A stretch of DNA of 14,432 bases from Enterovirga sp. (GTDB lineage Bacteria; Pseudomonadota; Alphaproteobacteria; Rhizobiales; Beijerinckiaceae), in assembly GCA_028290385.1 (NCBI GenBank), contig JAQGJZ010000260.1:1-14432 (forward strand), in the 5' to 3' direction. The translations under genes were made by a program, and so were the position numbers. The notes beneath the pieces are model-generated. The model was not told the DNA's origin. It ran no database searches and saw nothing but the letters and a program-made list of their open reading frames with translations. Below, piece after piece: positions 1 through 14,432 of the stretch (position 1 is its first letter; each line of letters starts with the position of its first letter).

Positions 1-1
1 G

Positions 2-691: not shown

Positions 692-3514
692 GAGCAGAAC
701 ACCGAGCAGGATTGGCTGAAGACCAACCTCGCCCGGTTCACGAACATGCTGCAGGGGCAGCGCGATCTCGTGACGGTCGGCCGGATGCTGCTGTCGGAGC
801 TCGCCCCGCTGGTCGAGGCGCAATACGGCGTCATCTACCAGGTGGATACGGGCGAGGGCGCCCCGACCGGGCTGCGGCTTCTGTCCGCCTATGCCGATGA
901 TGGGCTGTCCGGCCATCCGGAGCGCCTCGCCATGGGCGAAGGCCTGATCGGCCAATGTGCGCGGGACGCCCGCCGCATGCTGATCACCGAAATGCCCCCG
1001 ACCGTCGTGCCGATCGGCTCGGGCCTGTTCAAGGCCGTCCCCCGAAACGCGATCGTGCTGCCGGTGCTCTTCGAGGGGCAGGTGAAGGCGGTTATCGAGC
1101 TCGCCTCGCTCGGCCACTTCACCGACCTGCAGATGTCGTTCCTGGAGCAGCTCACGACCTCGATCGGCATCGTGCTGAACTCGATCGAGGCGACCATGCA
1201 GACCGAGGGCCTGCTGACCCAGTCGCAGCAGCTCGCGGCCGAGCTTCAGACCCAGCAGCGCGAGCTGCAGCAGACCAACGAACAGCTCGAGCAGAAGGCG
1301 CAGCAGCTCGCCGAGCGCAACGTCGAGGTCGAGGCGAAGAACCAGGAGATCGAGCAGGCCCGCCGTGCGCTCGAGGAGCAGGCGGCCGAGCTCGCGCTCA
1401 CGTCCAAGTACAAGTCCGAGTTCCTGGCCAATATGAGCCACGAGCTCCGCACGCCCCTGAACTCGATCCTGATCCTGGGGCAGCAGCTCAGCGAGAACCC
1501 TGACGGGAACCTGTCCGGCCGCCAGGTCGAGTTCGCCCGCACCATCCATGGCGCCGGCACCGACCTGCTCAACCTGATCACCGACATCCTCGACCTGTCG
1601 AAGATCGAGTCCGGGACGGTCTCGGTGGAGGCCGAGGAGATCTACTTCTCCAACCTCCTCGAGGTCATGGCCCGGCCCTTCCGGCACGAGGCGGAGGGCC
1701 GGCATCTGTCCTTCGACGTTCGCATGGCGCAGAACCTCGAACGGAGCCTCATCACGGACGCGAAGCGGCTGCAGCAGATCCTCAAGAACCTGCTCTCGAA
1801 CGCGTTCAAGTTCACGGCGGAGGGCGGCGTCACGCTCAGCGTCTCGCCGGTTGCGAGCGGCTGGAGCCCGGACCATCCGGTGCTGAAGCACGCGCCGTCC
1901 GTCATCGCCTTTGAAGTCACCGATACCGGCATCGGCATCCCGCCCGAGAAGCAGAAGATTATCTTCGAGGCCTTCCAGCAGGCCGATGCCGGCACGAGCC
2001 GTAAATATGGCGGCACGGGCCTCGGTCTCGCGATCAGCCGCGAGCTGGCCGGCCTGCTCGGCGGCGAGATTCAGCTGCGCAGCATGCCCGGGGTGGGCAG
2101 CACCTTCACGCTTTACCTGCCCCTGACCTATATCGGCCCGCCGGTGCAGCAGCAGACCCGTTCGGCCCGCGCGCTCGCGGTCGGTTCAGGTGACTTCCCC
2201 GAGCGGTCTTCGCACGCCGCGACCGCGACAGCCCCCTGGGCCGTTGCGGCGCTCGCGAAGGCGGCCGGCGCCAAGCTGTCGGACGCCGGCGCCAGCACCG
2301 AGCAGGAGGTCCCGGACGACCGCAACCGCATCGAGCCGGGCGACAACGTCCTGCTGATCGTTGAGGATGACGCGCATTACGCCCGCGTGATGGTCGACCT
2401 GGCGCACGACAACGGCCTCAAGGTCCTGGTCGCGCGCCGCGGCGTCGACGCCCTGGCGCTGGCGCGCGAGTTCAAGCCGACGGCCATATCGCTCGACGTG
2501 TTCCTGCCGGACATGATGGGCTGGACGGTTCTGAGCCAGCTGAAGCAGAACCCCGCGACCCGCCACATCCCGGTTCAGATCGTGACCATCGACGAGGACC
2601 GGAAGCACGGGCTGGCGCGCGGCGCCTTCTCGTTCATGTCCAAGCCGACCACGGCCGAGGGGCTCGACAACGCGCTCGCGCGGATCAAGACCTTCGCGCA
2701 GCCGCGCCGGCGGCGCCTCCTCGTTGTCGAGGACAACGCGGCCGAGCGGCTGAGCGTGACCGAACTGCTCGGCCACGGCGACATCGACATCAGGACGGCG
2801 GAGACCGGCGGCGAGGCGCTTCGGCTGCTCCGCGACGAGCCGGCCGATTGCGTCGTGCTCGACCTGAAGCTGCCCGACATGTCGGGGTTCGAGGTGCTGG
2901 AGCGGATCCGGGACGATGCGGCGCTCTCCGACATCCCGGTTGTCGTCTTCACCGGGCGCGAATTGTCGCCCGAGGAGGATGCGCAGCTCCACATGCTGGC
3001 CAGCAGCGTGGTCGTGAAGGGGGTGGAATCGCCCGAGCGCCTGCTCGACGAGACGGCCTTGTTCCTGCACCGCGTGGTGTCGGAGCTGCCGATCGAGAAG
3101 CAGCGCATGATCGAGCGCCTGCATTCGTCGGACGAGGACCTGATCGCCCGGACGGTGCTGCTGGTCGACGACGACGCACGCAACATCTTCGCGCTGTCGA
3201 GCGTTCTGGAGCGCCGAGGCATGAAGGTGCTCACCGCCACGACCGGCACCGAGGCGATTTCGATCCTCGAAAGCCGACCGGAGGTCGCCATCGTCCTCAT
3301 GGACATCATGATGCCGGGAATGGATGGCTACGAGACCATGCAGGCGATCCGGGCGAACCCGTCCTTCCGGCGCTTGCCGATCATCGCGCTCACCGCCAAG
3401 GCCATGAAAGGCGACCGGGAGAAGTGCCTGGAAGCGGGGGCGTCGGACTATCTGGCCAAGCCCGTCAACACCGAGCAGCTCCTGTCGTCGCTGCGCATGT
3501 GGCTGCACCGTTAG
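2..3514 (+). CDS. Hybrid histidine kinase with tandem HAMP repeats, GAF, kinase core and three receivers (5' partial)
   Basis: This is a cytoplasmic phosphorelay kinase; its signal is unknown. Residues are numbered from base 2. Tandem 92-residue HAMP units occupy about 1-230, a GAF domain about 255-396, and a Gln/Glu-rich coiled coil about 400-470. The HisKA domain has the motif SHELRTPLN with phospho-acceptor His480. The ATPase domain shows N600 in the N box, DTGIGIP at 641 and GGTGLGL at 670. Three receivers follow, with acceptor Asp832, Asp954 and Asp1101; their Lys residues are K881, K1006 (followed by Gly, not the usual Pro) and K1153. The GTG at base 2 is not the start: it matches an internal Val repeated at residues 93 and 185, so the gene begins upstream of the window. 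No HPt domain is visible. The next kinase starts 15 bases after the stop, so the two are probably co-transcribed. The repeat sequence closely resembles fungal group III (Nik1/Os-1) kinases, as recalled from that family. Confidence 0.95.
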
Positions 3515-3529
3515 GACGAGGACGCTTTC

Positions 3530-5668
3530 GTGCAGATCCAGGACCCCGATCGGGTCAACATCCTGCTCGTCGACGATCAGCCGGCGAAGCTGCTGAGCTA
3601 CGAGGTCATCCTCAGCGAGCTCAGCGAGAACCTCATCAAGGCGAACTCCGCCCGCGAGGCGCTCGAGCATCTCCTGCGGACGGAGGTGGCCGTCATTCTG
3701 CTCGACGTCTCGATGCCCGAGCTCGACGGGTTCGAGCTCGCGACGATGATCCGGGAGCATCCCCGGTTCCAGAAGACCGCGATCATCTTCGTCTCGGCCA
3801 TCCAGATCACCGAGCTCGACAGCCTGCGTGGCTACGAGGCCGGGGCGGTCGATTACGTCCCGGTGCCGGTGGTGCCGGAGGTTCTGCGCGCCAAGGTCCG
3901 CATCTTCGCCGAGCTGTATCGCAAGACGCGGCAGCTCGAGCGGCTGAACGCCGAGCTCGAACGCCGGGTCGCCGACCGCACGGCCGCCCTCGAGGCCGCT
4001 GCGGCGCGCCTGCAGGAAAGCGAGCAGCGCCGCAACCTCGCCATGCAGGCCGGCCGGATGGGCTCCTGGGAGTGGGACGTCTCCGCCGACCGCTACATCT
4101 GGGATGCGGGCCAGTTCCGCATCTTCGGCGTGGACCCGGCAGGCTTCGTGCCGACGCGGGAAGCCGTGGACGCGCTGATCCATCCCGACGACATCGAAGC
4201 GATGCGCGGGGCCACGGCCAGTGCGGCCGCGACCGGCGAGTACTACGATCGGGAATTCCGCATCTGCCGTCCCGACGGCAGCCTGCGCTGGTGCCTGGCC
4301 AGCGGCGCGGCCAGCTTCGACGAGTCCGGCAGTCCGATCCGCCTGTCGGGCATCACGCACGACATCACCGAGCGCAAGCGCGCCGAACAGGCGCTGCAGC
4401 AGCTCAACGAAGAGCTCGAGCAGCGCATCGAGGAGCGCACCCGCGAGCGCGAGGTCGCCCTGGCCCAGCTCTTCGAGGCGCAGAAGATCGACACGATCGG
4501 CCAGCTCACGGGCGGCGTCGCGCACGATTTCAACAACCTCCTCATGGCCGTGCTCGGCAGCCTCGAGCTGCTGAAGAAGCGGGTCGCCCCGGAGGATGCG
4601 CGCTCGCACCGGCTGCTGGACAACGCCGTGCAGGGCGCCGAGCGCGGCGCCGCGCTGACCCAGCGCCTTCTGGCCTTCGCCCGGCGCCAGGAGCTCAAGC
4701 CCGAGACGGTGGACGTGCCCCAACTCATCTCCGGCATGGAGGATCTGCTCCGCCGCGCCGTGGGCCCGGCCGTCATGCTGGGCAAGGACCTTCCGGCCAA
4801 TCTCGCGCCCGTGCGGGTGGACGCGAACCAGCTCGAACTCGCGATCCTGAACCTCGCCGTGAACGCGCGGGACGCGATGCCGCTCGGCGGCATGCTGTCG
4901 ATCGTGGCGGCGGAGCAGCGGATCGCAAGCGGCGAGGGGGAGGGCCCGCGCGAGCTGCCCGCGGGCCTGTATGTCCGCCTGCAGGTCGTCGATAGCGGCC
5001 TCGGCATGGACGAGGCGACGCTTGCCCGTGCGACGGAGCCGTTCTTCACGACCAAGGGTCCGGGCAAGGGAACGGGCCTCGGCCTGTCCATGGTGCAGGG
5101 CCTCGCCGTCCAATCCGGCGGCGCCATGCGGGTCACCAGCGAGCCGGGCAAGGGGACGACCATCTCGCTCTGGCTGCCCCAGGCCGAGCTGGCCGAGGTG
5201 CAGGTGGCCGCGCCCGAGCGCGGGCTGGCGCCGCGCGGCAACTCGGCCGCGATCGGGCCCGAGCTGACCGTGCTCGTGGTCGACGACGATCTTCTCGTGG
5301 CGGCGGGGACGGCCGCGATGCTCGAGGATCTCGGGCACCGCGTGATCGAGGCGAGTTCGGGCGCCCAGGCGCTCGATGCGCTCCGGCGGCACGGGCGGGC
5401 GATCGACATCGTCATCACGGACCACGCCATGCCGGGCATGACCGGCCTCGAGCTCGCGCAGCAGCTCAAGGTGAGCCATCCGGCGCTGCCCATCATCCTG
5501 GCGAGCGGCTACGCGGATATCGACGAAGCGGCCGAGTTCGGACGGCTGCCGCGGCTGGCCAAGCCGTTCCGCCAGATCGACCTCGCATCCGCGATCGCGG
5601 CGGCCCGGGACAGCGAGGCGGCGCTGCCCGGGGACAACAACGTCGTGTCCCTCGCCGCACACCTCTGA
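3530..5668 (+). CDS. Hybrid histidine kinase: receiver-PAS-HisKA-ATPase-receiver
   Basis: 712 residues, soluble. The N-terminal receiver spans about 6-125 with acceptor Asp59. The usual Lys before Pro is replaced: the segment reads DYVPVPV, with Val112 where Lys is expected. A coiled coil follows (about 128-165), then PAS/PAC at about 168-286 (GSWEWDV, then GITHDITERKR). A second coiled coil leads to the DHp helix with GGVAHDFNNLL and phospho-acceptor His332. The ATPase domain has N445 in the N box, DSGLGM at 488 and GKGTGLGL at 512. The C-terminal receiver (about 578-700) is complete, with Asp631 and Lys678. The GTG start is supported by GAGGA at 3518-3522, seven bases upstream, and by the 15-base gap after the preceding kinase. 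The two kinases probably form one operon and may share a relay (inference). The input of the N-terminal receiver could be the upstream kinase. Confidence 0.93.
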   Translation: MQIQDPDRVNILLVDDQPAKLLSYEVILSELSENLIKANSAREALEHLLRTEVAVILLDVSMPELDGFELATMIREHPRFQKTAIIFVSAIQITELDSLRGYEAGAVDYVPVPVVPEVLRAKVRIFAELYRKTRQLERLNAELERRVADRTAALEAAAARLQESEQRRNLAMQAGRMGSWEWDVSADRYIWDAGQFRIFGVDPAGFVPTREAVDALIHPDDIEAMRGATASAAATGEYYDREFRICRPDGSLRWCLASGAASFDESGSPIRLSGITHDITERKRAEQALQQLNEELEQRIEERTREREVALAQLFEAQKIDTIGQLTGGVAHDFNNLLMAVLGSLELLKKRVAPEDARSHRLLDNAVQGAERGAALTQRLLAFARRQELKPETVDVPQLISGMEDLLRRAVGPAVMLGKDLPANLAPVRVDANQLELAILNLAVNARDAMPLGGMLSIVAAEQRIASGEGEGPRELPAGLYVRLQVVDSGLGMDEATLARATEPFFTTKGPGKGTGLGLSMVQGLAVQSGGAMRVTSEPGKGTTISLWLPQAELAEVQVAAPERGLAPRGNSAAIGPELTVLVVDDDLLVAAGTAAMLEDLGHRVIEASSGAQALDALRRHGRAIDIVITDHAMPGMTGLELAQQLKVSHPALPIILASGYADIDEAAEFGRLPRLAKPFRQIDLASAIAAARDSEAALPGDNNVVSLAAHL

Positions 5669-5689
5669 CGGCCCGCCGAGCCGGGCCGT
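5668..5689. terminator. Hairpin between convergent kinase genes
   Basis: A perfect 8-bp stem (5668-5675 with 5682-5689, ACGGCCCG/CGGGCCGT) and a 6-base loop start at the last base of the stop codon of the + strand kinase and precede the end of the - strand kinase. No T-tract follows on either strand, so it may be a transcript 3'-end structure or a weak terminator rather than a classical intrinsic terminator. Confidence 0.4.
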
Positions 5690-5707
5690 GACCGCGTCAC
5701 GCCGGCT

Positions 5708-7162
5708 TCAGGAAGCGGTTCGATCCGGGATCGCGATGCAGAAGCAGGCGCCCTGCGGCGTCTCCTCCAGTACGATGGTCCCGCCGTGCAGGCGGACCAG
5801 CTCCTCCGCCACGGGCAGGCCGAGTCCGGTGCCGCCGCTCCGCTCCGAGGCCTGAAAGGCCGAGAACAGGCGGTCCCGAACCTTGGCCGGAATGCCCGGC
5901 CCGTTATCGGCGACCCGACACCGCACGATCGACCCCGCGCGGGACGCGCTGATCAGGATGCGGGCCTCGGGCGTCTTGGCTCGGGCGAGCGCCTCGACGG
6001 CATTGCGGATCAGGTTTAGCAGCACGCGGCCGAGCTGCTCCGGATCGGCATCCACGATGAGGTCGGCCGGAACCTCGTCGACCACCGCGATCGGGTGGCC
6101 GTGGCCGAGCTCGGTCAGGCCGAGCTGGTCGGCCACCACCTCCTTCAGGCGCACGCGGCGGCGCTGCGGCGCGGGCTCCGTCACGCGGCCATAGGCCAGC
6201 GTCGCGCCGCAATATTCGATCGCCCGCGCCAGCGTCCGGATCAGCCGCGGGGCGATCCTCTGGACGGCCGGGTCCTGCACGGTTCCGAGGCGGTCGCCGA
6301 GGAGCTGCGCGGTCGTGAGCATGTTGCGGAGCTCGTGATTGATCTTGCTGACCGCGAGGCCGAGCTCCGCGAGCCGCCGCTTCTGGCGCAGCTCCGCCGC
6401 GAGTGCGATCTCCATGCCGGCGAGCGCGCGCTCCGCCGCCCCGATCTCGTCCGTGCGGGCGCTCGGACGGATGATGCGGGAGGCGTCCTCCGGGGCGGCC
6501 GCGAACTCCGTGAGGTTTTCCGACAGCCGCCGGACGGGCCGCACCACCAGGACGTAGAGCGCCAGATAGAGCAGGCCCGACGTGATGCCCGAGAGGACGA
6601 GCGAAACCACCAGGAACCTGCGCGAGCAGGCGAGCATGGCCTCGCGCACCGGGCGCTCGTCGAGGACGATCTCGACCCATTCCATCCCGCTCGCCCCCGG
6701 GGGGCCAGGCGCCACGATCCGGGTCGCGGCCGGGATCGGCACGAGCAGCGTGCGGAGCGCCCCGCGGACGCTGCCGTACCAGGGCGGGGCCCGCAGATCG
6801 ATCTCGCGGTTCGCCGGCGGAGGCGACTCGTCCCCGGTGGTCAGCAGCCACTCCGTCCCGTGCCCGCGCACGCCGATCGCCTGCGCGCCCTTCACGGCCC
6901 CGAGAAGGCGCGCCTTCATCTCGCCCGAACGGGCGTCGGGCGGCGCGGCCGAGATCGCGAGCGCGATCATCTGCGCGCCCATGACCCGGTCGCTGATCCA
7001 GCTCGACCGGAAACTGGCGAGCGACGGCACGTAGACGAGGACCTGGGCCACCATCATGAACAGCAGGGTGAGCAGGATCAGCCGCCCGGACAGCCCAAGG
7101 CGATACGGGCTGGTGCGCGCTGATGCCGGCGGCTCGACCGCCCGGGACGCGATGGTCGTCAT
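5708..7162 (-). CDS. Membrane-bound sensor histidine kinase (HAMP-HisKA-ATPase)
   Basis: 484 residues. A proline-rich cytoplasmic tail precedes TM1 (about 28-48). A periplasmic sensing region spans about 49-180, TM2 about 183-207, followed by VRPVRRL and a HAMP domain to about 262. The DHp helix carries KINHELRNML with phospho-acceptor His276. The ATPase domain shows N383/N387 in the N box, DNGPGIP at 419 and SGGTGLGLP at 442, so all catalytic boxes are intact. No receiver is fused and no separate response regulator is present in the window, so the partner is unknown. The ATG at 7162 has no strong Shine-Dalgarno sequence. A short 29-codon frame (7248 to 7159) ends across this start as CCATGA, so coupled translation is possible. 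The gene is convergent with the hybrid kinases and lies beyond the hairpins that follow flgH, so it needs its own promoter in 7163-7253; I could not identify a confident one. Confidence 0.92.
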   Translation of the reverse strand: MTTIASRAVEPPASARTSPYRLGLSGRLILLTLLFMMVAQVLVYVPSLASFRSSWISDRVMGAQMIALAISAAPPDARSGEMKARLLGAVKGAQAIGVRGHGTEWLLTTGDESPPPANREIDLRAPPWYGSVRGALRTLLVPIPAATRIVAPGPPGASGMEWVEIVLDERPVREAMLACSRRFLVVSLVLSGITSGLLYLALYVLVVRPVRRLSENLTEFAAAPEDASRIIRPSARTDEIGAAERALAGMEIALAAELRQKRRLAELGLAVSKINHELRNMLTTAQLLGDRLGTVQDPAVQRIAPRLIRTLARAIEYCGATLAYGRVTEPAPQRRRVRLKEVVADQLGLTELGHGHPIAVVDEVPADLIVDADPEQLGRVLLNLIRNAVEALARAKTPEARILISASRAGSIVRCRVADNGPGIPAKVRDRLFSAFQASERSGGTGLGLPVAEELVRLHGGTIVLEETPQGACFCIAIPDRTAS

Positions 7163-7253
7163 GGCGCCCGCCGTACCGCGCGCGCCGCCATGGCGCCCGC
7201 CCGAATGCAGGTTGTCGAAAGTGCCCCCATGGGCTGAGCACTTAGCATAGGAA

Positions 7254-7281
7254 ACGGCCCCGGCGGGAGCGCCGGGGCCGT
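7254..7281 (-). terminator. Intrinsic terminator of the flgF-flgG-flgA-flgH operon
   Basis: A perfect 12-bp G/C stem pairs 7254-7265 with 7270-7281 around the loop GGAG. Read on the - strand, the stem is followed by TTTCC, a short T-run. It lies about 57 bases beyond the flgH stop and ahead of the next - strand gene, the sensor kinase. The stem is very stable; the short T-run makes efficiency uncertain. Confidence 0.75.
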
Positions 7282-7284
7282 GTT

Positions 7285-7321
7285 GGTGCTGCGACGAACG
7301 TGGGGAGCGTGCCGCAGCACC
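7285..7321 (-). terminator. Second hairpin just after flgH
   Basis: A 9-bp perfect stem (GGTGCTGCG at 7285-7293 with CGCAGCACC at 7313-7321) with a 19-base loop lies between the flgH stop and the main terminator hairpin. It has no T-tract of its own. It probably protects the 3' end or aids termination. Confidence 0.45.
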
Positions 7322-7337
7322 GGGGAAAGGGTGCGGG

Positions 7338-8087
7338 TCAGAAGGGCAGGATGATGTCCATCACCTGCTGGCCGTAGCGCGGCTGCTGGACGTCCGTGAT
7401 CTGGCCGCGGCCGCCATAGGCGATGCGCGCCTCGGCGATCTTGGTGCTGTCGATGGTGTTGTCGGCCTCGATATCCTCCGGGCGGATGATGCCGGCGACG
7501 ATCAGTTCGCGAACCTCGAAGTTCACCCGGATCTCCTGCTTGCCCTCGACCACGAGGTTGCCGTTCGGCAGCACCTGCGTGACGACGCCCGCGACGTTGG
7601 TGACCAGCTCCTCCTTCCGGGCGATCGAGCCGGTGCCTTCCGAGCTCATGCTCGAGCTGGTGCCGACGAGCGCGCTCGGGTCCGAGCCGGGGAGCAGGTT
7701 CTTGGATTCTGCGCCGAGGAAGTTCGGCACGCCGACCTTGTCGCCGCTGGTGCGGGAGCGCTTGGTTTCGTTGTCGAGGTTGGCCTTGTCGGTGACCTTC
7801 ACCTTCACGGTGACGATGTCGCCGACCTGCTGGGCGCGCTGGTCCTTGAAGAAGGCGCGCGACCCCGTCCGCCACAGCGAACTCGCCGCGTAGGACGAGG
7901 GCTGCGGGTTCGGCATCGGCATGCGCACCGGCTTGTAGCCGGGCTGCGCGGTCGGATCCTCGATCGAGGACAGGTTCGGCGCCTTGCCGACATTCGACAG
8001 CCGGTCGAGGGAGCCGCAGCCGCCGAGCGTGAGGCCGAGGGCGGCGAGGGCGAGGGCGGCGCGGGCCGCGGAGGAGAGCGTGGACAT
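7338..8087 (-). CDS. flgH: Flagellar L-ring lipoprotein FlgH
   Basis: FlgH forms the outer-membrane L ring, the bushing around the flagellar rod. The 249-residue product has a lipoprotein signal: a short N region, a hydrophobic stretch about 10-21 and the lipobox L21-G22-G23-C24, so Cys24 is the predicted lipidated residue after cleavage. The mature part carries family hallmarks: SLW near 70, RAQQVGDIVTVKVKV, a Ser/Gly-rich central region, and the C-terminal block NGNLVVEGKQEIRVNFEVRE followed by GIIRPEDI. It ends with QQVMDIILPF. Length is typical. It is the last gene of the operon, 23 bases after flgA, with a weak Shine-Dalgarno (GAGAA at 8093-8097) and two hairpins downstream. Confidence 0.96.
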   Translation of the reverse strand: MSTLSSAARAALALAALGLTLGGCGSLDRLSNVGKAPNLSSIEDPTAQPGYKPVRMPMPNPQPSSYAASSLWRTGSRAFFKDQRAQQVGDIVTVKVKVTDKANLDNETKRSRTSGDKVGVPNFLGAESKNLLPGSDPSALVGTSSSMSSEGTGSIARKEELVTNVAGVVTQVLPNGNLVVEGKQEIRVNFEVRELIVAGIIRPEDIEADNTIDSTKIAEARIAYGGRGQITDVQQPRYGQQVMDIILPF

Positions 8088-8110
8088 GGGCGTTCTCGCG
8101 GGTTCGCGGA

Positions 8111-9103
8111 TCAGTTCTGGGTGGGGAGGGCGCCTGCGGCGACCACGCGTTCGACCGGGGCCGGACGGACCGAGACTCTGCCGGGCCCGATCACGGTGGC
8201 GGGCACGGCCTTCTTGGAGCCGGGATTCGTGATGCTGATCACGTCGCCGAGCGCGCCGCCCTCATTGGCCTTCACCCGCATGGAGAGCACGAGCCCGGGC
8301 GCTTCGTAGACGGCGGCGATCACGTCGCCCTTCTGCACGAGCTCGGGCTTGGCGACGTCGGCGGCCCGCACGAAGCTGCCGGCGCCGAGCGCCCGCCGGG
8401 CGATGCGGCCGACCAGCGGCCGGCCGTCCAGGAGGGCATCCGCCGTCACGGCGTCGCGCGGACGCTTCTCGACCGAGATGTCGGCAGGCTGCACGGTGTC
8501 GCCGCGATCGAGCGCGCGGGTGAGGACCGCGACATCGACGAGATCGACCACCGTTCCGCTGACGCGCAGCGACGCGCGCCGCTCCGTCGAGGACGGACCG
8601 AGCCAGACGGTGGCGGAGAGCCGGCGGGAGCGCCTGTCGAGCAGGACGTCGCCTGCAACGAGCTCGCCCGTCTGGTCCGGCGCGACGGCGAGCGCCGGCT
8701 GCGTGCCGTCGAACACGATCCCGGTCGAGGCCGGATCGAAGCCGAGCTTCTCGCCGAGGGCCCGCTTCAGGGCGCCCTCGATCTCGCCGGCCCCGATCTG
8801 GCGGGCTGCCCGGGTGACGGTGATCTGAAGCCGGCCGCCGGTCTCGACGGTCGTCAGGCCGAGATCCCGGGCGGCCTCGGCGACCCGGCGGGCCTGGATG
8901 GTGCCCGTCTGGCCGAGGGCCGGCGAGCGGAACAGCGGCGTGTCGGCGATCGCGGCCGGCGCGCCGTCGACGAGGTCGGCGAGGGTCAGGGTGTCCCGCC
9001 CGGTGACGACGTCGCCGCGCAGGGCGGCACCGTCGGCCGCGGAGGCTGCGACCGGCCAGAAGAGGGCGGCCGCGAGAAGGGGGGTGAGGAGCTTGCGGAT
9101 CAT
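8111..9103 (-). CDS. flgA: Flagellar P-ring assembly chaperone FlgA
   Basis: Periplasmic chaperone needed for FlgI to assemble into the P ring. Numbered from the ATG at 9103, the product is 330 residues. It has a Sec signal peptide with likely cleavage after A20-S21-A22, a variable middle, and a SAF/ChapFlgA region from about 190 (LTRALDRGDTV, RPLVGRIARRAL, LVQKGDVIAAVYEAPGLVLSMRVKA) ending near VIGPGRVSVRP. I chose the ATG at 9103 over the GTG at 9112 because GAGGTG (- strand, 9115-9110) sits six bases before the ATG but would overlap the GTG. That Shine-Dalgarno overlaps the flgG stop codon, so translation of the two is tightly linked. flgI itself is not in the window. At 330 residues it is longer than the enterobacterial protein but unremarkable for alphaproteobacteria, from memory. 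Confidence 0.93.
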   Translation of the reverse strand: MIRKLLTPLLAAALFWPVAASAADGAALRGDVVTGRDTLTLADLVDGAPAAIADTPLFRSPALGQTGTIQARRVAEAARDLGLTTVETGGRLQITVTRAARQIGAGEIEGALKRALGEKLGFDPASTGIVFDGTQPALAVAPDQTGELVAGDVLLDRRSRRLSATVWLGPSSTERRASLRVSGTVVDLVDVAVLTRALDRGDTVQPADISVEKRPRDAVTADALLDGRPLVGRIARRALGAGSFVRAADVAKPELVQKGDVIAAVYEAPGLVLSMRVKANEGGALGDVISITNPGSKKAVPATVIGPGRVSVRPAPVERVVAAGALPTQN

Positions 9104-9109
9104 GCGCGC

Positions 9110-9115
9110 CACCTC
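9110..9115 (-). promoter_or_regulatory. Shine-Dalgarno that fixes the flgA start
   Basis: GAGGTG on the - strand overlaps the flgG stop codon (9114-9116) and lies six bases before the flgA ATG at 9103. It argues against the in-frame GTG at 9112, which falls inside the site. Confidence 0.75.
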
Positions 9116-9905
9116 AGCCGCGGAACATCTGGCTGGTGGAGGACAGCATCTGGTCCGCCGCCGTGATCACCTTCGAGTTCATCTCGTAGGCACGCTGCGC
9201 CGCGATCAGCCCGGAGATCTCCGTGACGGCGTTCACGTTCGCATCCTCCAGGTAGCTCTGCTGGAGGTTGCCGAACCCGTCCGCACCGGGGTTGCCGTCG
9301 ACGGCCTGGCCGGACGCGGCGGTCTCGGTGAACAGGTTGTCGCCGACCGAGTTCAGGCCCGTCTTGTTGATGAAGCGGGACAGCTGCACGGTGCCGAGGT
9401 TCTGCTGGGCGGTCTGGCCCGGGATCGTCGCCTGGACGAGGCCCTGGGCCGAGATCGTCACGGCGGTCGCGGTCTGCGGCACCGTAATGCCCGGCTCCAC
9501 CAGATAGCCGTTCTGGGTCACGAGCTGGCCTTGTGCGTCCAGGCTGAGGGAGCCGTCGCGGGTATAGGCCGCGACCCCGTCCGGCATCCGGATCTTGAAA
9601 TAGCCCTCGCCGCGGATCGCCACGTCGTAGGGCTTTCCGGTCGCGTTCAGGGTGCCCTGCGACATGTCCCGGGGTGTCGAGACCGTCTTCACGCCCGAGC
9701 CGATGGACAGCCCGGCCGGCAGCATCGTGCCCTGGTCGGAGGTGGCCGACCCGGCCCGGCGCAGGTTCTCGTAGAGGAGATCCTGAAACTGCACCTGCTG
9801 GCGCTTGAAGCCGGTCGTGCGAAGGTTCGCGATGTTGTTGGAGATGGTCTGGACGTTGAGTTCCTGGGCCGCCATCCCGGTCGCGGCGGTTTGAAGTGCG
9901 CGCAT
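9114..9905 (-). CDS. flgG: Flagellar distal rod protein FlgG
   Basis: FlgG is the main component of the distal rod that crosses the P and L rings; it is exported by the flagellar type III apparatus, so no signal peptide is expected and none is seen. The 263-residue product is full length. The N-terminal rod motif reads LNVQTISNNIANLRTTGFKRQ. The central region includes SQGTLNATGKPYDVAIRGEGYF and YTRDGSLSLDAQGQLVTQNGY. The C-terminal motif reads LEDANVNAVTEISGLIAAQRAYEMNSKVI, ending SSTSQMFRG. Both ends form the coiled-coil D0 domain. The start has a strong AAGGAGAG (9918-9911) five bases upstream, overlapping the flgF stop, so the two genes are translationally linked. Confidence 0.97.
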   Translation of the reverse strand: MRALQTAATGMAAQELNVQTISNNIANLRTTGFKRQQVQFQDLLYENLRRAGSATSDQGTMLPAGLSIGSGVKTVSTPRDMSQGTLNATGKPYDVAIRGEGYFKIRMPDGVAAYTRDGSLSLDAQGQLVTQNGYLVEPGITVPQTATAVTISAQGLVQATIPGQTAQQNLGTVQLSRFINKTGLNSVGDNLFTETAASGQAVDGNPGADGFGNLQQSYLEDANVNAVTEISGLIAAQRAYEMNSKVITAADQMLSSTSQMFRG

Positions 9906-9916
9906 GGGGGCTCTCC

Positions 9917-10663
9917 TTAAGCGGCTTGGGCGTCGGCGAGGCGGGAGACGGCGGTGCGCGTCAGCTCCTGCATCTGGCCCAGCATGCCGGCGACGCTGGC
10001 ATAGGCCCGGTTGACCTCGATCAGCCGGGTCATCTCGTGCACGGCGTTGACGTTCGAGCGCTCGAGCGCGCCGGATTCGAGCCGGCTCGTCGCGCCCGCC
10101 GGATCGGCCGGGACGCTGGCCGAGAACACGTTGCCGCCCTCCGCCTTGAGGCTGCGCATGTCGGCAAAGCGGACAAGGCGGATCCGGCCGTGCTGGGCCT
10201 GGGCCGAGCTGATCGTTCCGTCGGGCGCGATCGCGATGTCCGTCTCGGTCCGATCAAAGGTGATCGGGCCGTTGTCGCCGAGCACGAGGTTGCCGTCGCT
10301 CGTCACGATCCGGCCCTGCGGGTCGAGTGAAAAGGCGCCGTTGCGGGTGTAGCGCTCCCCGCCGGCCGTCTGGACGGCAAAGAAGGCGTCGCCCTTGATG
10401 GCGACGTCGAGCGGGTTCTTCGTGAACTCGATCGCGCCCGTCGACGTGTCGAGCGTGGTGCCCTTGTCGATGACGTAGTCGAGGGCGCGGTCGGAGCGCT
10501 TGAACGCATCCCCGCTCGCCTTCGGCATGATGTAGCTTTCGAAGCGCGACGATTGCGCCTTGAAGCCGTTTGTCGAGACGTTCGCCACGTTGTTGGCGAC
10601 GACGTCGAGCTCGCGCCTGAGCGACATTTGCCGCGACAGGCCGACGAGCAGCGCGTTCTCCAT
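9917..10663 (-). CDS. flgF: Flagellar proximal rod protein FlgF
   Basis: FlgF is a proximal rod subunit of the flagellar basal body, exported by the flagellar type III system. The product is 248 residues. It has the N-terminal rod motif ELDVVANNVANVSTNGFKAQ, the central FTKNPLDVAIKGDAFFAVQT and YTRNGAFSLDPQGRIV, and the C-terminal LERSNVNAVHEMTRLIEVNRAY. It differs from FlgG in its shorter middle and its SRFESYIMP segment, matching FlgF. It is the first gene of the flgF-flgG-flgA-flgH unit. The ATG at 10663 has GGGAG (10674-10670) six bases upstream. A near-consensus sigma-54 promoter lies about 60 bases upstream of the start codon, and possible enhancer sites lie further out. Confidence 0.95.
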   Translation of the reverse strand: MENALLVGLSRQMSLRRELDVVANNVANVSTNGFKAQSSRFESYIMPKASGDAFKRSDRALDYVIDKGTTLDTSTGAIEFTKNPLDVAIKGDAFFAVQTAGGERYTRNGAFSLDPQGRIVTSDGNLVLGDNGPITFDRTETDIAIAPDGTISSAQAQHGRIRLVRFADMRSLKAEGGNVFSASVPADPAGATSRLESGALERSNVNAVHEMTRLIEVNRAYASVAGMLGQMQELTRTAVSRLADAQAA

Positions 10664-10732
10664 GAACCGCTCCCGTTATGTGTCCCCGCCGGACCCTCGA
10701 CGCTCCCCAGCGCGAACCCGGCACGAGGTTGA

Positions 10733-10748
10733 TGGCAGGCGGCGTGCC
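10733..10748 (+). promoter_or_regulatory. Overlapping + strand -24/-12-like element
   Basis: The same bases read on the + strand give TGGCAGGCGGCGTGCC, also with GG-N10-GC spacing, because the site is partly palindromic. It would point at fliL with a leader of about 190 bases. It is weaker than the - strand reading and may be a by-product of symmetry. Confidence 0.25.
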
Positions 10749-10750
10749 AA
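10734..10750 (-). promoter_or_regulatory. Sigma-54 (-24/-12) promoter of the flgF operon
   Basis: Read on the - strand the sequence is TTGGCACGCCGCCTGCC. It matches TGGCACG-N4-TTGC with a single mismatch (CTGC), and GG and GC are exactly ten bases apart. Predicted transcription start is near 10723, leaving a leader of about 60 bases before flgF. Class III flagellar operons in Caulobacter use sigma-54 promoters of this kind (established knowledge). Confidence 0.75.
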
Positions 10751-10757
10751 ACGTGTG

Positions 10758-10780
10758 GAAAACAAAAAGCTAGCGTTTTC
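10758..10780. promoter_or_regulatory. AT-rich inverted repeat upstream of the flgF promoter
   Basis: GAAAAC at 10758-10763 pairs with GTTTTC at 10775-10780 around an 11-base centre containing the palindrome GCTAGC. It is a conspicuous AT-rich island in GC-rich DNA, placed between the sigma-54 promoter and the presumed activator sites. It could be a bending site (IHF-like) or a binding site for an unknown regulator. I see no full IHF consensus. Confidence 0.4.
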
Positions 10781-10831
10781 AGTCGGTTGAGCGCGAGGCG
10801 GTCTGGCCTGATCTGTCCCGGATAGGCCGAT

Positions 10832-10861
10832 CGGCAGGTTTCGGCCCGGCAGGAATTGCCG
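10832..10861. promoter_or_regulatory. Candidate FlbD (ftr-like) activator sites
   Basis: A palindrome CGGCA-N5-TGCCG occupies 10847-10861, and a half site CGGCAGG starts at 10832, so the motif CGGCAGG appears twice 15 bases apart. The pair lies about 110-140 bases upstream of the predicted flgF transcription start, a usual enhancer distance for sigma-54. The right half abuts the CtrA box. The likeness to Caulobacter ftr elements is from memory of that motif and has not been scored. Confidence 0.45.
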
Positions 10862-10863
10862 AC

Positions 10864-10879
10864 TTAACCCGTGATTAAC
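10864..10879 (+). promoter_or_regulatory. CtrA box upstream of fliL
   Basis: TTAACCCGTGATTAAC is a perfect TTAA-N7-TTAAC, the full CtrA recognition sequence. Its second half can serve as a -35-like element for + strand transcription, 71 bases before the fliL start codon. Class II flagellar promoters in Caulobacter, including that of fliL, are CtrA-controlled (established knowledge). Confidence 0.75.
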
Positions 10880-10923
10880 CCTGCGCGCCCAAGGTCGCGG
10901 ATGTCGTCCTGCCCGACTGTCCA

Positions 10924-10928
10924 GAGTC
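10924..10928. promoter_or_regulatory. GANTC (CcrM-type) methylation site
   Basis: GAGTC lies in the fliL leader, 22 bases before the start codon. CcrM methylates GANTC in alphaproteobacteria, and such sites near CtrA-controlled promoters can tie expression to replication. A single 5-base match can arise by chance. Confidence 0.3.
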
Positions 10929-10950
10929 GCGTCTCGGAAGCACTCAAGCG

Positions 10951-11442
10951 ATGGCGAAGAAGCCGAAGGAGCCGTCCGCGGACGGTGCCGAAGATGCCGG
11001 CGCCCCGAAGGGCGGCAAGAAGAAGCTGATCCTCGGTGCGGCCGCCGTGCTGCTGCTGGCGGGAGCCGGCGGAGGCTATCTGGCGCTCGGGCGCGGCGGC
11101 GCGAGCCATGCCGCGCCGGCCGAGAAACGGTCCGTCGCCTTTGTCGATGTGCGCGAGATGACCGTGAACCTCGCGGCCGAGCCCAACCAGGAGCGGCCCC
11201 GCTTCCTCAAGCTGAAGGTCGCGCTCGAGGTGAAGGATCCCAAGATCGTCACCGAGGTGCAGCCCCTGCTGCCGCGCGTGGAGGACATCTTCCAGGTCTT
11301 CGTGCGCGAGCTGCGCGCGAGCGACCTCGAGGGTTCGGGCGGCATTCACCGGCTGCGGGAGGAGCTCCTCCGGCGGGTCAACGTCGCGGTTGCGCCCACC
11401 CGGGTCGAAGCCGTGCTCTTCAAGGACGTGATCGTTCAATGA
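10951..11442 (+). CDS. fliL: Flagellar basal body-associated protein FliL
   Basis: FliL is an inner-membrane protein that surrounds the stator units and supports motor torque. The 163-residue product has a basic, Lys/Pro-rich cytoplasmic N terminus (1-25), one membrane segment (about 26-46, very Ala/Gly/Leu-rich) and a periplasmic domain with the family signature FVDVREMTVNLA, then RPRFLKLKVALEV and a C terminus ending EAVLFKDVIVQ. The ATG is preceded by GGAAG (10936-10940) at ten bases. The stop overlaps an ATG as ATGA, the arrangement expected if another gene, normally fliM, were coupled behind it. The gene is first in its operon, with a perfect CtrA box upstream. Confidence 0.95.
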   Translation: MAKKPKEPSADGAEDAGAPKGGKKKLILGAAAVLLLAGAGGGYLALGRGGASHAAPAEKRSVAFVDVREMTVNLAAEPNQERPRFLKLKVALEVKDPKIVTEVQPLLPRVEDIFQVFVRELRASDLEGSGGIHRLREELLRRVNVAVAPTRVEAVLFKDVIVQ

Positions 11443-11513
11443 CCGCCGCACAGGTTGGCGGGACACCGCTTATCCGCCCTTCGGCAGGCCTGCCCGCAGG
11501 TCACCGTCGATGA
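11439..11513 (+). other. 24-codon frame in the fliM position
   Basis: This small frame starts in the fliL stop (ATGA at 11439) and ends in the start of the next gene (ATGA at 11510), so it is linked at both ends. The peptide begins MTAAQVGGTPL and ends GLPAGHRR. About 10 of 23 third codon positions are A or T, unlike the flanking genes, so coding pressure looks weak. It contains a perfect 12-base palindrome. It could be a remnant of an in-frame fliM deletion, a translational bridge, or spacer. Confidence 0.25.
11483..11494. repeat. Perfect 12-base palindrome GGCAGGCCTGCC
   Basis: It lies in the fliL to DUF6468 spacer. Followed by CGCAGG, it can also pair as CCTGC/GCAGG. It contains the CGGCAGG motif seen twice near the divergent promoters, which may be coincidence. 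Confidence 0.4.
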
Positions 11514-11977
11514 ACGGCATCGTCGTCGTCGCGGCCGACATCCTGGTCGGCATCCTGCTGGTCGCGACCATCATCTCGTCCGTAAAACTGTCCCGGCGCA
11601 TCACGCGGCTCAAGGCCGACGAGAGCGCCATGCGGGCGACGATCGGGGAGCTCGTCGCCGCGACGGATGCGGCCGAACGCGCGGTCGCGGGCCTGCGCAC
11701 GACGCTTGCGGAGTGTGACCGCGATCTTTCCGACCGCATCGACCTTGCCCAGCGCCAGTCGCTGGAGCTCGGCCGTGCCATGGAGGCCGGCGAGCGGGTC
11801 GTCGGGCGTATCGAGCGGGTGTTCGATGCGACACGCCGGGCCCTGCACGCAAACCCGCCGCCGGCTGGGTCGCAACCCGACGAGGCACGCGCCTCGAGCG
11901 GGCTTCAGGCGGCGATCGCCGCGGCCCAGGCCGTGGCCGACCGGAGCGCGCGCCGCGTCGAGAGCCGGGCGGCGTGA
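11510..11977 (+). CDS. DUF6468-type membrane/coiled-coil protein
   Basis: 155 residues. One N-terminal membrane segment (about 4-25: VVVAADILVGILLVATII) is followed by a charged helical, probably coiled-coil region to about 110, then a Pro/Ala-rich tail with little predicted structure. Proteins of this layout are found next to fliL-fliM and a MotE-like gene in alphaproteobacteria and are listed as DUF6468, from memory. No biochemical role is established that I know of; the location suggests a motor or basal-body accessory. The ATG overlaps the end of the preceding 24-codon frame, and the stop overlaps the GTG of the next gene as GTGA, so translation is coupled. Confidence 0.75.
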   Translation: MNGIVVVAADILVGILLVATIISSVKLSRRITRLKADESAMRATIGELVAATDAAERAVAGLRTTLAECDRDLSDRIDLAQRQSLELGRAMEAGERVVGRIERVFDATRRALHANPPPAGSQPDEARASSGLQAAIAAAQAVADRSARRVESRAA

Positions 11978-12798
11978 TCCTGCGCCGGAGCCTGCCGAAC
12001 ATCAGGCTGATCGATGGCGTGATCATCGCCGCGGTCGCGCTGCTCGGCCTCAAAGTGCTCGGTTTTTTTGCCGACGGGCGCGGCGTGTCTGCGCTGCCGC
12101 CGCATTCGACCATCGGATCGGCCGTGGAGCAGAAGCCCGCCGCGCCGTCGGCACAGGCCGGCTTCGGCCGCGTGCTGTCCCATGCCCGCACGAATTACGA
12201 ACCCGCCGAGCCGACCACGACCGGCTCGCTCGGGAGCAAGGCGGAGGACACGCCCACGCCCAAGCAGGTGCCTGTTCCGGCCGCCGACGGAACCCCTCCG
12301 CTCGTGCCCCCCTCGACCAGCGAGCGGGTTCTGCTCGAGCGCCTCGGCGAGCGCCGGGAGGAACTGCACCAGCGCTCCCGGGAGATGGAAGCGCGCGAGC
12401 GCCTGATGCAGGAGCAGGAGCACAGGCTGGAGGAGCGCCTGAACCAGCTCAAGGCGGCGGAGGAATCCCAGAAATCCGCCGCTGCCGCGAAGCCCGCGGG
12501 CTCCGACCCGACCGCGCTGAAGAACGTCGTCGTGATGTACGAGACCATGAAGCCCAAGGAGGCGGCCCGCGTTTTCGACCGGCTGCCGATCGACGTGCTC
12601 CTGTCCGTCGTCGTCCAGATGAACGCCCGCAAGATGGCCGAGATCCTGGCCGTCATGACGCCGGAAAACGCCGAAAAACTCACCGTCGCCCTGGCCAAGC
12701 GCGCGAACGGCCCGGCCGAGAACAGGCCCGTCCCGGCGGCGGCGCTGCCGGCCGGCGAGCTCCCGGCGATTGAACGTCCGACCGCATCGCGCCGCTGA
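11974..12798 (+). CDS. MotE-like protein with MgtE N-terminal-type domain
   Basis: 274 residues. A membrane anchor lies at about 13-32, then a Pro/Ala-rich linker to about 115, a charged coiled coil at about 117-172 and a helical domain at about 180-245 (NVVVMYETMKPKEAARVFDRLP, then MNARKMAEILAVMTPENAEKL). That domain resembles the MgtE intracellular N domain, which shares a fold with FliG. In Sinorhizobium meliloti MotE is a periplasmic chaperone for the stator-associated MotC; whether this protein does the same is inference. The GTG start overlaps the previous stop as GTGA, and no ATG occurs early in frame. The linker is long compared with rhizobial MotE. Confidence 0.75.
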   Translation: MILRRSLPNIRLIDGVIIAAVALLGLKVLGFFADGRGVSALPPHSTIGSAVEQKPAAPSAQAGFGRVLSHARTNYEPAEPTTTGSLGSKAEDTPTPKQVPVPAADGTPPLVPPSTSERVLLERLGERREELHQRSREMEARERLMQEQEHRLEERLNQLKAAEESQKSAAAAKPAGSDPTALKNVVVMYETMKPKEAARVFDRLPIDVLLSVVVQMNARKMAEILAVMTPENAEKLTVALAKRANGPAENRPVPAAALPAGELPAIERPTASRR

Positions 12799-12804
12799 AT
12801 GCGG

Positions 12805-12832
12805 TTAAGCGCCCGTTAGGCCCGCGGGCGCT
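12805..12832 (+). promoter_or_regulatory. Degenerate CtrA-like box within a hairpin
   Basis: TTAA at 12805 and TTAG at 12816 are separated by exactly seven bases, one mismatch from the CtrA core. The site overlaps an 8-bp stem (12808-12815 with 12825-12832) and the palindrome GCCCGCGGGC at 12820-12829. It lies in the 100-base gap before the last gene. It may be a promoter site, a transcript end of the fliL operon, or chance. No T-tract follows. Confidence 0.35.
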
Positions 12833-12898
12833 AGGGTCGCCCCGGTCCAAACAGCTTGGGCCCAACCCGAACCGCGCTCCCATCCCTCGGTGCCGACG

Positions 12899-14432
12899 AT
12901 GTTCCATCTCGGCCGGTGGTCCGGCCCTTCCCTCGGCCGGCTGATCGGACGCCTCGCTCCGTTCGTCATCGCATTCGGGCTCGCGGCCGGCGCCGCCTCG
13001 GCCCGCGAAGTGGTCGTGACGGGCGCGAACATGAACCGCTTCGGGCGGATCCTCCTGACGTTCGACCAGCCGACCAAGGTGTCCGCCCGGGTCACGAACG
13101 CCGTCCTGATCATCACGTTCGCGGACTCGGCCAAGGTCAAGACCGAGAAGCTCGCCCTCGAGATGGCGCCCTACATCACGACGGTGCGCCGTGATCCGGA
13201 CGGGACGGGGCTGCGCCTCGCCTTGACCGGGCCCGTGAAGGCCAACGTGCTCGAGGCGGCGGAGCGGGTCTTCATCGACCTTTTGCCGCCGAACTGGACG
13301 GGCCTGCTGCCCGGCCTGCCGACGGAGGTGGTCGCCGAACTGGCCGCACGGGTGGCGCAGGCCGAGGCGAAGCTCAAGGCCGCCGCGCCGCGCGCCGTCC
13401 CGGCCAAGGTGGTGCGGCTGCGCATGGCCGAGTTGCCGGCCATGACGCGGCTGCAATTCGACATGCCGGAGCCCGTGCCGGTGCAGATCCAGGAGAACGG
13501 CGACGAGGTCGAGCTCACCTTTTCCGGGCCGGTCACCTTCGAGGACGGCGGTGCGAAGCCGAAGCTCGCGGCCGGGATCGCCGCGTTCGACCCGGCGCCG
13601 GCCGGAACCGGCCTGAGGGTCAGGGTCAAACGCGCGCCCGGCTATGTGCTGCAGAGTTTTCGCGAGCCCGATGGTCTCGTGCTGGACGTGGCGAAGCCGC
13701 TTCCCCCGCAGGTACTGCCCGAGCCGGCCGCCTTCGAGCCCGCTCCCGAAGCCGCGCCAACGGAGCCGGCCCCGGTGCAGGCGAAGGCCGAAGACAGGCC
13801 CCCGCCGCCGCCCGCACCCCCGCAGCCTGCCGCCCCGGCCGCCGCGACACCGACCTCCGCGCCGGCGGTGTCTGCGCCGGCAACGATCGTCGCCCGGGTC
13901 GAGACCGGGCCGGACGGAGCCTCGCTCGTCTTCCCGTTTCGGACCCGGACGCCCGCCGCGGCCTATGTGAGGGCGGGCGCGCTGACCCTCGTGTTCGACA
14001 GCCAGGACCGGCTCGATACGAGCGCACTCGCCGGCAGCCCGGACGGGTCCCTGCGGCCGATCGAGACGACGTCGGACGGGACGGCCACCGTCCTGCGCTT
14101 CCCGGAAGCGGCTGCCGCCTCCGCCCGGTTCGTGGCCGAGGGGAGCGGCTGGCGGCTCGCCACCGGCAACCCGAAGGTGCTGCCGCCCGACGCCTTGAAG
14201 GTGTCGCGCGGATCGGACGATCATGGCCGCGCGCGTGTCCGGGTCGGCCTCGCGGACGGCTCGCGCGTGCATTGGATGCGCGACCCCGACGGGGCGCGGG
14301 TCGGGATCGTGACGGCGGCGGGCCGCCCCCAGGCGCTGCCTCTGGCGCGCAGCTTCGTCGAATTCGTGCTCGCGCCCACCCTGCACGGCGTGGTCGTCGA
14401 GGCGCGGGCGGACGATGTCTCGGCCTCGCTCG
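12899..14432 (+). CDS. Large exported protein of unknown function (3' partial)
   Basis: The frame is open from the ATG at 12899 to the window end, 511 codons with no stop. A Sec signal peptide (basic start, hydrophobic stretch about 20-33, likely cleavage after A33-S34-A35) predicts a periplasmic or envelope protein. After it comes a beta-rich region (EVVVTGANMNRFGRILLTFDQP) reminiscent of AMIN-type domains, containing the motif FIDLLPPNWTGLLPGLP. A short helical stretch, a second beta-rich part and a Pro/Ala-rich linker (about 280-325) follow, then a third beta-rich segment to the edge. Similar proteins beside fliL/motE loci in alphaproteobacteria are long and often have C-terminal TPR repeats; this is from memory and any TPRs would lie outside the window. 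No clear Shine-Dalgarno precedes the ATG, and a 100-base gap suggests its own promoter. Confidence 0.7.
   Translation, partial: MFHLGRWSGPSLGRLIGRLAPFVIAFGLAAGAASAREVVVTGANMNRFGRILLTFDQPTKVSARVTNAVLIITFADSAKVKTEKLALEMAPYITTVRRDPDGTGLRLALTGPVKANVLEAAERVFIDLLPPNWTGLLPGLPTEVVAELAARVAQAEAKLKAAAPRAVPAKVVRLRMAELPAMTRLQFDMPEPVPVQIQENGDEVELTFSGPVTFEDGGAKPKLAAGIAAFDPAPAGTGLRVRVKRAPGYVLQSFREPDGLVLDVAKPLPPQVLPEPAAFEPAPEAAPTEPAPVQAKAEDRPPPPPAPPQPAAPAAATPTSAPAVSAPATIVARVETGPDGASLVFPFRTRTPAAAYVRAGALTLVFDSQDRLDTSALAGSPDGSLRPIETTSDGTATVLRFPEAAAASARFVAEGSGWRLATGNPKVLPPDALKVSRGSDDHGRARVRVGLADGSRVHWMRDPDGARVGIVTAAGRPQALPLARSFVEFVLAPTLHGVVVEARADDVSASL

Follow-up and report, generated by a model that had tools for sequence, protein, structure and literature searches.

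The 14,432-nucleotide stretch analyzed here (the window) is contig JAQGJZ010000260.1 from the draft genome of an Enterovirga sp. (the host; 3.1 Mb in 552 contigs, 77.8% complete). It carries a flagellar gene cluster in which two divergent operons flank a 287-bp gap at positions 10664 to 10950, and this gap is the subject of our analysis. Pfam matches identified flgF, flgG, flgA, and flgH leftward from position 10663 and fliL, a DUF6468 gene, and a third gene rightward from position 10951. A match to MgtE_N below the cutoff suggests that the third gene may be MotE-like. The closest named FliL match, with 84% identity, comes from Enterovirga aerilata (Methylobacteriaceae, order Hyphomicrobiales). 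A first-pass annotation, made from the sequence alone, had described the gap as a two-way flagellar switch holding, in order, a sigma-54 promoter toward flgF, an AT-rich inverted repeat, a palindrome with an extra half site, a CtrA box toward fliL, and a GANTC site. We confirmed that these elements are real and that they stand in that order, and we found one element that had been missed, a conserved hairpin in the leader of the flgF message, at its predicted 5' terminus. The features of the gap and its two flanking genes are as follows.

Positions 9917 to 10663, minus strand: flgF (Pfam PF22692, PF06429, and PF00460), heading the series flgF-flgG-flgA-flgH.
Positions 10618 to 10721, minus strand: divergent match (35 bits) to Rfam RF01736, the flg-Rhizobiales RNA, spanning the leader and the first flgF codons.
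Positions 10688 to 10722, minus strand: predicted 5'-terminal RNA hairpin, with an outer stem, an internal loop, an inner stem GCGCU/AGCGU, and a GGGG loop.
Position 10723, minus strand: predicted flgF transcription start, 12 nucleotides after the -12 C of the -12 GC.
Positions 10734 to 10750, minus strand: sigma-54 promoter TTGGCACGCCGCCTGCC, assigned by consensus match and conservation.
Positions 10758 to 10780, no strand: AT-rich inverted repeat with 6-bp arms at 10758 to 10763 and 10775 to 10780, judged from its coordinates and an alignment.
Positions 10777 to 10789, plus strand: weak IHF-type site TTTCAGTCGGTTG, read by eye.
Positions 10832 to 10836, plus strand: extra CGGCA half site, incomplete, at an offset of 15 bp from the palindrome.
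Positions 10847 to 10861, no strand: FlbD-type palindrome CGGCAGGAATTGCCG, an exact CGGCA-N5-TGCCG.
Positions 10864 to 10879, plus strand: CtrA box TTAACCCGTGATTAAC, an exact TTAA-N7-TTAA with its TTAAC end toward fliL.
Positions 10924 to 10928, no strand: GANTC site, of a kind that is rare in the window and not kept family-wide.
Positions 10951 to 11442, plus strand: fliL (Pfam PF03748).

For comparison, FliL was searched in 60 relatives (35 matches), 297 genomes of the order (177 matches), 241 genomes of the class (135 matches), and a named collection (38 loci). Gaps were fetched for part of these matches, including a further 80 from the order and 40 from the class, which were the best scoring among the FliL matches listed; sampling through FliL means that distant or rearranged systems are under-sampled. 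The divergent arrangement of flgF and fliL, which presumably also holds in Caulobacter, was kept in 206 of the 213 loci examined, and 200 of these are non-identical. The seven loci with no usable flgF match (L038, L039, L040, L162, L250, L265, and L269) include some short pieces; L038, L039, and L040 are fliL loci titled with Rhodobacterales genera or the family, and no flgF homologue was seen in the stretch examined. Clustering of FlgF at 70% identity gave 110 representatives. The jitter and shuffle controls used throughout ignore descent, and FlgF clustering at 60 to 90% identity merely reduces the effect of kinship.

Across the alphaproteobacterial gaps a common core recurred far above shuffles: a sigma-54 promoter toward flgF, an IHF-type site, the palindrome, and often a CtrA-type box toward fliL. 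The sigma-54 promoter of the window has one mismatch to TGGCACG-N4-TTGC and two to the longer consensus, and it satisfies GG-N10-GC in a TGGCAC and TTGC context. Such a match is weak by itself, with at least one occurring in 67 of 200 shuffles of the window, so conservation was needed to decide. The promoter was present in 97 of the 110 representative gaps, compared with 1.7 in shuffles, which secures it and bears out the near-perfect leftward promoter of the first-pass annotation. The flgF transcript would start at about position 10723 by the usual spacing from the -12 element, in agreement with the start given in that annotation.

Distances between the sigma-54 promoter and the palindrome are quantized, with peaks near 68, 77 to 79, 91, 103 to 105, 114, and 125 bp. 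Every one of the four clustering levels gave a best period of 11.6 to 11.9 bp, and 0 of 3,000 jittered sets showed as strong a periodicity. The phase held when the largest peak (99 to 107 bp) was left out (n = 52, projection of 0.525 at 11.5 bp, matched by 0 of 20,000 random sets). With a period of exactly 10.5 bp, the signal was weak (p = 0.06), which indicates a step longer than the textbook helical repeat, and distances near 72 and 88 bp lie off the lattice. The distance in the window is 113 bp, one of the long spacers. Quantized spacing of this kind is what would be expected of an enhancer that acts by looping.

Integration host factor (IHF) recognizes the consensus WATCAA-N4-TTR. A match with at most one mismatch lay between promoter and palindrome in 47 of 84 spacers, while shuffles gave 4.8%. 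Of these 47 sites, 33 were centered 22 to 23 bp from the promoter, and three lay at 33 to 34 bp, where the spacers measure 97 to 99 bp. The CAR-N4-TTR core was kept in eight of nine same-genus gaps, as read by eye from their alignment. In the relatives, the gap thus has the anatomy of a sigma-54 enhancer module, with an activator site about 70 to 125 bp upstream in helical phase and an IHF-type site between; the corresponding site of the window is weak.

The palindrome CGGCAGGAATTGCCG is the sole exact copy in the window (0.06 expected). With at most one mismatch it was found in 90 of the 110 representatives (2.8 in shuffles), and it was exact in 49 (0.2 in shuffles); the consensus in the relatives is CCCGGCA-AAATT-TGCCGGG. 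Second palindrome-like sites cluster at offsets of 13 to 14 and 30 to 32 bp, with 40 counts in 85 gaps against 0.6 in shuffles, and offsets of -14 or -13 alone account for 18 counts (0.2 in shuffles). The extra half site of the window, incomplete and 15 bp away, fits this tendency to tandem sites, and the palindrome with half site described at first holds up well. The palindrome would resemble the Caulobacter ftr site.

A fitting activator is encoded in the host. Its FlbD scores 777 bits against the NCBIfam equivalog NF050807 (cutoff of 750), and the gene lies on contig C34 behind fliH and fliN. The other close sigma-54 activators of the host are one NtrX, one NtrC, and one fragment under every cutoff examined. 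An FlbD candidate considered at first (L128) is NtrX and was discarded. FlbD exceeded the family cutoff in 160 of 297 order genomes and in 74 of 241 class genomes. These results point to FlbD as the probable ligand of the palindrome, and the earlier proposal that FlbD turns flgF on is well supported by the host gene and by the conserved phasing of promoter and palindrome, with binding itself a prediction.

The CtrA box is the only TTAA-N7-TTAA in the window (none in 200 shuffles), and it has the orientation TTAA-N7-TTAAC toward fliL, so the perfect box reported earlier stands. It was found with at most one mismatch in 63 of the 110 representatives (11.1 in shuffles) and exactly in 12 (0.5 in shuffles). 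CtrA would be expected to bind this box facing fliL. Two bases separate it from the palindrome in the window. In the host genome, this gap is the only place where exact copies of the two sites lie within 30 bp of each other; over 41 genomes such pairs gave 18 matches in 14 genomes, compared with 1 for a reversed control.

The first-pass annotation had singled out this joint geometry as the notable part. Within the family (53 distinct gaps), 48 gaps combine an exact CtrA box with a palindrome of no more than one mismatch, and the start-to-start offset is 17 bp in 38, 18 bp in nine, and 29 bp in one. Outside the family the commonest offset is 29 to 31 bp within a range of 16 to 106 bp (13 to 110 bp searched), and some of these offsets may be chance because the CtrA-type matches allow up to three mismatches. 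Gaps that keep the gene order do not always have the palindrome abutting the CtrA box. The two-base abutment is a family trait in our sample and not a general rule, and the variable offset elsewhere does not support a class-wide obligatory exclusion of CtrA by FlbD. The palindrome-to-CtrA offset also looked periodic against jitter, and helical phasing of these two sites was dropped because the effect was lost once the peak at 28 to 32 bp was omitted (p = 0.05 to 0.16 for periods of 10.5 to 12 bp). Conserved spacing, the check proposed in that annotation, was seen for the promoter and palindrome but not for the palindrome and CtrA box outside the family; the AT-rich repeat was not conserved, and the GANTC site was not kept family-wide.

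Within the genus, the longest stretch of the gap without variation, CGACGCTCCCCAGCG, lies in the flgF leader and was kept in nine of nine gaps. Positions 10686 to 10722 are predicted to fold at -20.6 kcal/mol, with GCGCU-GGGG-AGCGU inside a longer stem. In 58 of 121 leaders a GGGG begins 22 to 30 nucleotides after the -12 GC. For 55 of them, the 5' arm of the hairpin is predicted to begin between bases 9 and 14 past the GC, within about 3 nucleotides of the expected +1; folding was started at base 9, so that earlier starts could not appear in this statistic. GGGG loops on stems of at least 4 bp were present on the sense strand in 54 of 130 leaders (2.6 in shuffles) and on the antisense strand in none. 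Four leaders (L207, L208, L225, and L231) have two such hairpins each. By a fixed definition (a UGGGGA or UUGGGAGA loop, at least three flanking pairs, and a fixed position), 54 of the 93 order leaders carry the hairpin (shuffles, 0.08), compared with none of the 28 leaders taken from other orders.

Covariation was examined in an alignment of 53 of the 58 anchored leaders; L035, L059, L148, L199, and L211 were omitted, as they lack the typical loop surroundings. Pairing in the inner stem reaches 94.8%, and 52 cells have changes on both sides, compared with 18.3 in shuffles. The covariation score was 0.665 against 0.181 in shuffles (0 of 500), four inner pairs covary, and sliding the partner by one to three columns dropped the score to 0.26 or less. 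When all 58 leaders were used, pairs 2 to 4 exceeded every one of 500 shuffles, the loop-adjacent pair was nearly invariant, and pair 5 was unsupported. A hairpin model from an ungapped alignment is weak (0.59 bits per position), and its three best matches in 112 kb are the three flgF leaders.

The match of this leader to RF01736 (35 bits; gathering score of 55) has an E value of 0.0013 in 32 kb, 1.2e-5 in 301 bases, and 3.0e-5 in the whole genome, where the flgF leader is the only match. Among 15 further loci, 12 have matches (E < 1), and one of these, L051, is above the threshold at 56.2 bits. In a separate comparison L150 scored 112 bits. The leader should, on this likeness, be regarded as a divergent flg-Rhizobiales RNA that scores below threshold. 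This RNA is named in PMC2864571 and is said to have three stem-loops (PMC3765529); in the text consulted, these two sources mention it in a list or as a test example and give no function for it. A match to RF00223 at positions 10970 to 11055 was taken as chance (24.8 bits against a gathering score of 40).

Taken as a whole, we read the gap as a compact bidirectional region in which CtrA would drive fliL, FlbD and sigma-54 would drive flgF through a looping enhancer, and the flgF mRNA would start with a hairpin, with FlbD possibly hindering CtrA. We assign this reading a probability of roughly 0.73. It is backed by comparison: the sites, the gene order, the phasing of sigma-54 promoter and palindrome, the position of the IHF-type site, the covariation of the hairpin, and the presence of an FlbD gene. 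Early in assembly, CtrA at the box next to fliL would fire the fliL operon as a class II unit. After the early structure is built, FlbD would be activated through FliX, as is described for Caulobacter (PMC3096577). Active FlbD would then bind the enhancer (positions 10832 to 10861) and loop over the IHF-type bend onto the right helical face of the promoter, where sigma-54 polymerase would open the class III genes flgFGAH. The looping is proposed from the phased spacing. The flgF message from about position 10723 would begin directly with the UGGGGA-loop hairpin, which probably protects or regulates it, for instance by slowing decay from the 5' end or by being bound by a regulator. One candidate for such a regulator is FlbT, which in Caulobacter binds the leader of a flagellin message (PMC3930126). 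In the family, where two or three bases separate the palindrome from the CtrA box, an FlbD oligomer may hinder CtrA and lower fliL expression. The CtrA-fliL and FlbD-flgF steps are put forward because of the conserved anatomy together with Caulobacter biology, while repression of fliL and a function for the hairpin are only plausible.

Several observations weigh against this reading. The IHF-type site of the host has two mismatches. Two of the five covariation measures fall within shuffles (both-side-change pairs, 375 of 500; further pair types, 76 of 500), which we attribute to the few pairs involved, and the alignment covered 53 of the 58 anchored leaders. In the order, 39 of 93 leaders are without the hairpin as defined. 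The RF01736 match is below the gathering score in the host and, among seven genomes, five have one match each and none is above the threshold; part of the RF01736 model is moreover flgF coding sequence, which makes the covariation of the hairpin an independent line of evidence. The exact palindrome alone is not enriched genome-wide (28 copies in the host, 19 of the reversed pattern; four other genomes below control), so that most copies elsewhere need not be sites. No palindrome better than two mismatches was found in 25 of 137 representatives, and the six with three mismatches (G212, G131, G196, G446, G406, and G426) all have a strong FlbD match. Conversely, seven of the 120 genomes with fetched gaps (G094, G160, G233, G264, G375, G391, and G476) have no strong FlbD match (E > 1e-180, judged by eye).

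This last group bears on who reads the palindrome. Of its six scorable genomes, five keep the palindrome with at most one mismatch, so the site may have readers besides FlbD. These cases could reflect a different activator, divergence of FlbD, or a gap in the assembly. Completeness is 86 to 90% for G094 and G233 and is listed as 100% for G160, G375, and G391, and the gaps of the latter three (L185, L240, and L255, respectively) have the palindrome and the sigma-54 promoter despite the lack of a strong FlbD match. NtrC and NtrX, encoded in the host, would be available to take the role. Still, we think it highly unlikely that the palindrome is read here by some regulator other than FlbD, for instance a paralogue of NtrC or NtrX, given that the site is found repeatedly next to a flagellar sigma-54 promoter in a class in which many genomes encode FlbD and that control of class III genes by FlbD is established in Caulobacter (PMC3930126, PMC3096577).

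A different question is whether FlbD at this site serves flgF alone, with fliL under CtrA only. On this view the site must lie some 70 to 125 bp behind the flgF promoter, and in a short gap such a site would happen to fall beside the fliL promoter. The clearly conserved constraint is the distance from sigma-54 promoter to palindrome; the offset to the CtrA box, in contrast, varies outside the family, and its residual phase is unconvincing. We put this explanation at somewhat short of even odds. It does not sit easily with the 47 of 48 family gaps at an offset of 17 or 18 bp, nor with the concentration of most remaining offsets below 35 bp in the ranges of 16 to 21 and 29 to 31 bp, nor with the repression of fliF by FlbD reported for Caulobacter (PMC3930126, PMC3096577). 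Two same-genus relatives also have the palindrome between a CtrA box and a gene start. These second sites, at L126:8279-8331 (G005, contig C2) and L124:13844-13882 (G008, contig C1), have the palindrome 24 bp from the CtrA box (start to start), and no sigma-54 promoter with three or fewer mismatches was found nearby. The adjacent gene in G005 is flgB (NF004654, 150 bits against 142), and from the like layout the gene in G008 is probably flgB as well. The palindrome there is placed as a repressor of a CtrA promoter could be, by analogy with ftr4 upstream of Caulobacter fliF, and its placement raises the likelihood that FlbD is bifunctional in this group, although it does not prove repression at fliL. 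Matches of the same palindrome/CtrA form were also seen in G001, G022, and G047.

The handover favored by the first-pass annotation, in which one FlbD-bound site turns flgF on and fliL off by excluding CtrA, draws on the same observations. The exact sites two bases apart are kept in the family, the palindrome recurs beside a CtrA box at the second flagellar promoter of the relatives, and FlbD is bifunctional in Caulobacter (PMC3930126). Against this, most other lineages sampled have an offset that is longer by about a helical turn or more, which makes simple steric exclusion less likely. The repression of fliL by the same FlbD is hence plausible here, and the full handover is a tentative proposal that we rate as rather doubtful.

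As to the leader, its block could be conserved as a DNA element, for example, a downstream protein site, and its invariance in nine of nine same-genus gaps is what such a site could produce. The stem sequence, however, changes across the order while the pairing stays, and the GGGG-loop stems are confined to the sense strand, so we give this explanation very little credence. A more elaborate scheme, a three-layer checkpoint in which FlbD, released by completion of the early flagellum, loops onto flgF and evicts CtrA from fliL while the hairpin loop is read by a CsrA-independent factor that links translation or stability of the rod mRNA to assembly, seems unlikely. CsrA is itself an unlikely reader of the loop, as csrA (PF02599) was found in none of 16 genomes tested, with three of 14 control genomes positive.

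Each part of the gap is of a known kind. In Caulobacter, FlbD belongs to the NtrC-type activators; it switches on sigma-54 class III genes and also represses a class II promoter, with ftr sites that include ftr4 at fliF (PMC3930126). The gap resembles that system in its activator type, its sigma-54 class III targets, and the class II promoter that is repressed there; it differs in that one palindrome lies between two divergent operons and could act on both, with repression here no more than plausible. Short divergent flagellar gaps with a CtrA box are also described for Rhodobacter sphaeroides (fliL2-fliF2 and flgB2-fliI2, one of them with fliL), in which CtrA is needed in both directions, whereas one direction here is of the sigma-54/FlbD type (PMC6180460). 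The natural sigma-54 enhancer distances of Vibrio qrr genes cluster about every 11 bp between roughly 80 and 120 bp (PMC4740811), so that the quantized spacing is a known property in a new place. That system works through LuxO on other targets; ours is a bidirectional gap, sampled class-wide, with an IHF-type site. Like RF01736, the leader hairpin is a Rhizobiales leader element, and the first stem-loop and the flgF start align; it differs in being a sub-threshold match and in being tied to a sigma-54 start, and a less strict definition of the first hairpin let us follow it into many more genomes. In the literature searched, part of which was available as excerpts, we did not find the combination in one divergent gap, the quantized conserved spacing, or the link between RF01736 and sigma-54, and some parts may be in the classic Caulobacter papers. 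If our reading is correct, a switch known from a few Caulobacter promoters would become testable across the class, with early and late promoters sharing an enhancer region of quantized geometry, and RF01736, tied to a sigma-54 start, would acquire both a promoter and a regulator and would be placed at the 5' terminus of a message.

The two remaining elements of the first-pass annotation are also present. The AT-rich inverted repeat is not conserved as a repeat in nine aligned same-genus gaps (by eye), and a role as operator or cruciform was rejected for this reason; it overlaps and adjoins the conserved position of the IHF-type site, which is the conserved element there. GANTC is strongly depleted in the window (positions 1 to 14432), with 13 copies compared with 75.9 expected from dinucleotide shuffles. 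A GANTC at gap positions 258 to 273, shortly before fliL, was seen in six of nine same-genus gaps (the window, L042, L043, L044, L046, and L047). It was found 45 to 80 bp past the start of the CtrA box in just 13 of 49 family gaps, and the site was rejected as a family-wide part.

Elsewhere in the window, a histidine-kinase-like gene at positions 5708 to 7162 (minus strand) follows flgH in the same direction and has a 75% identical counterpart at the corresponding position in G008 (L124:1121-2557). Positions 2 to 5668 (plus strand), beside the flagellar genes, encode two large hybrid histidine kinases with HAMP, GAF, PAS, and several receiver domains.

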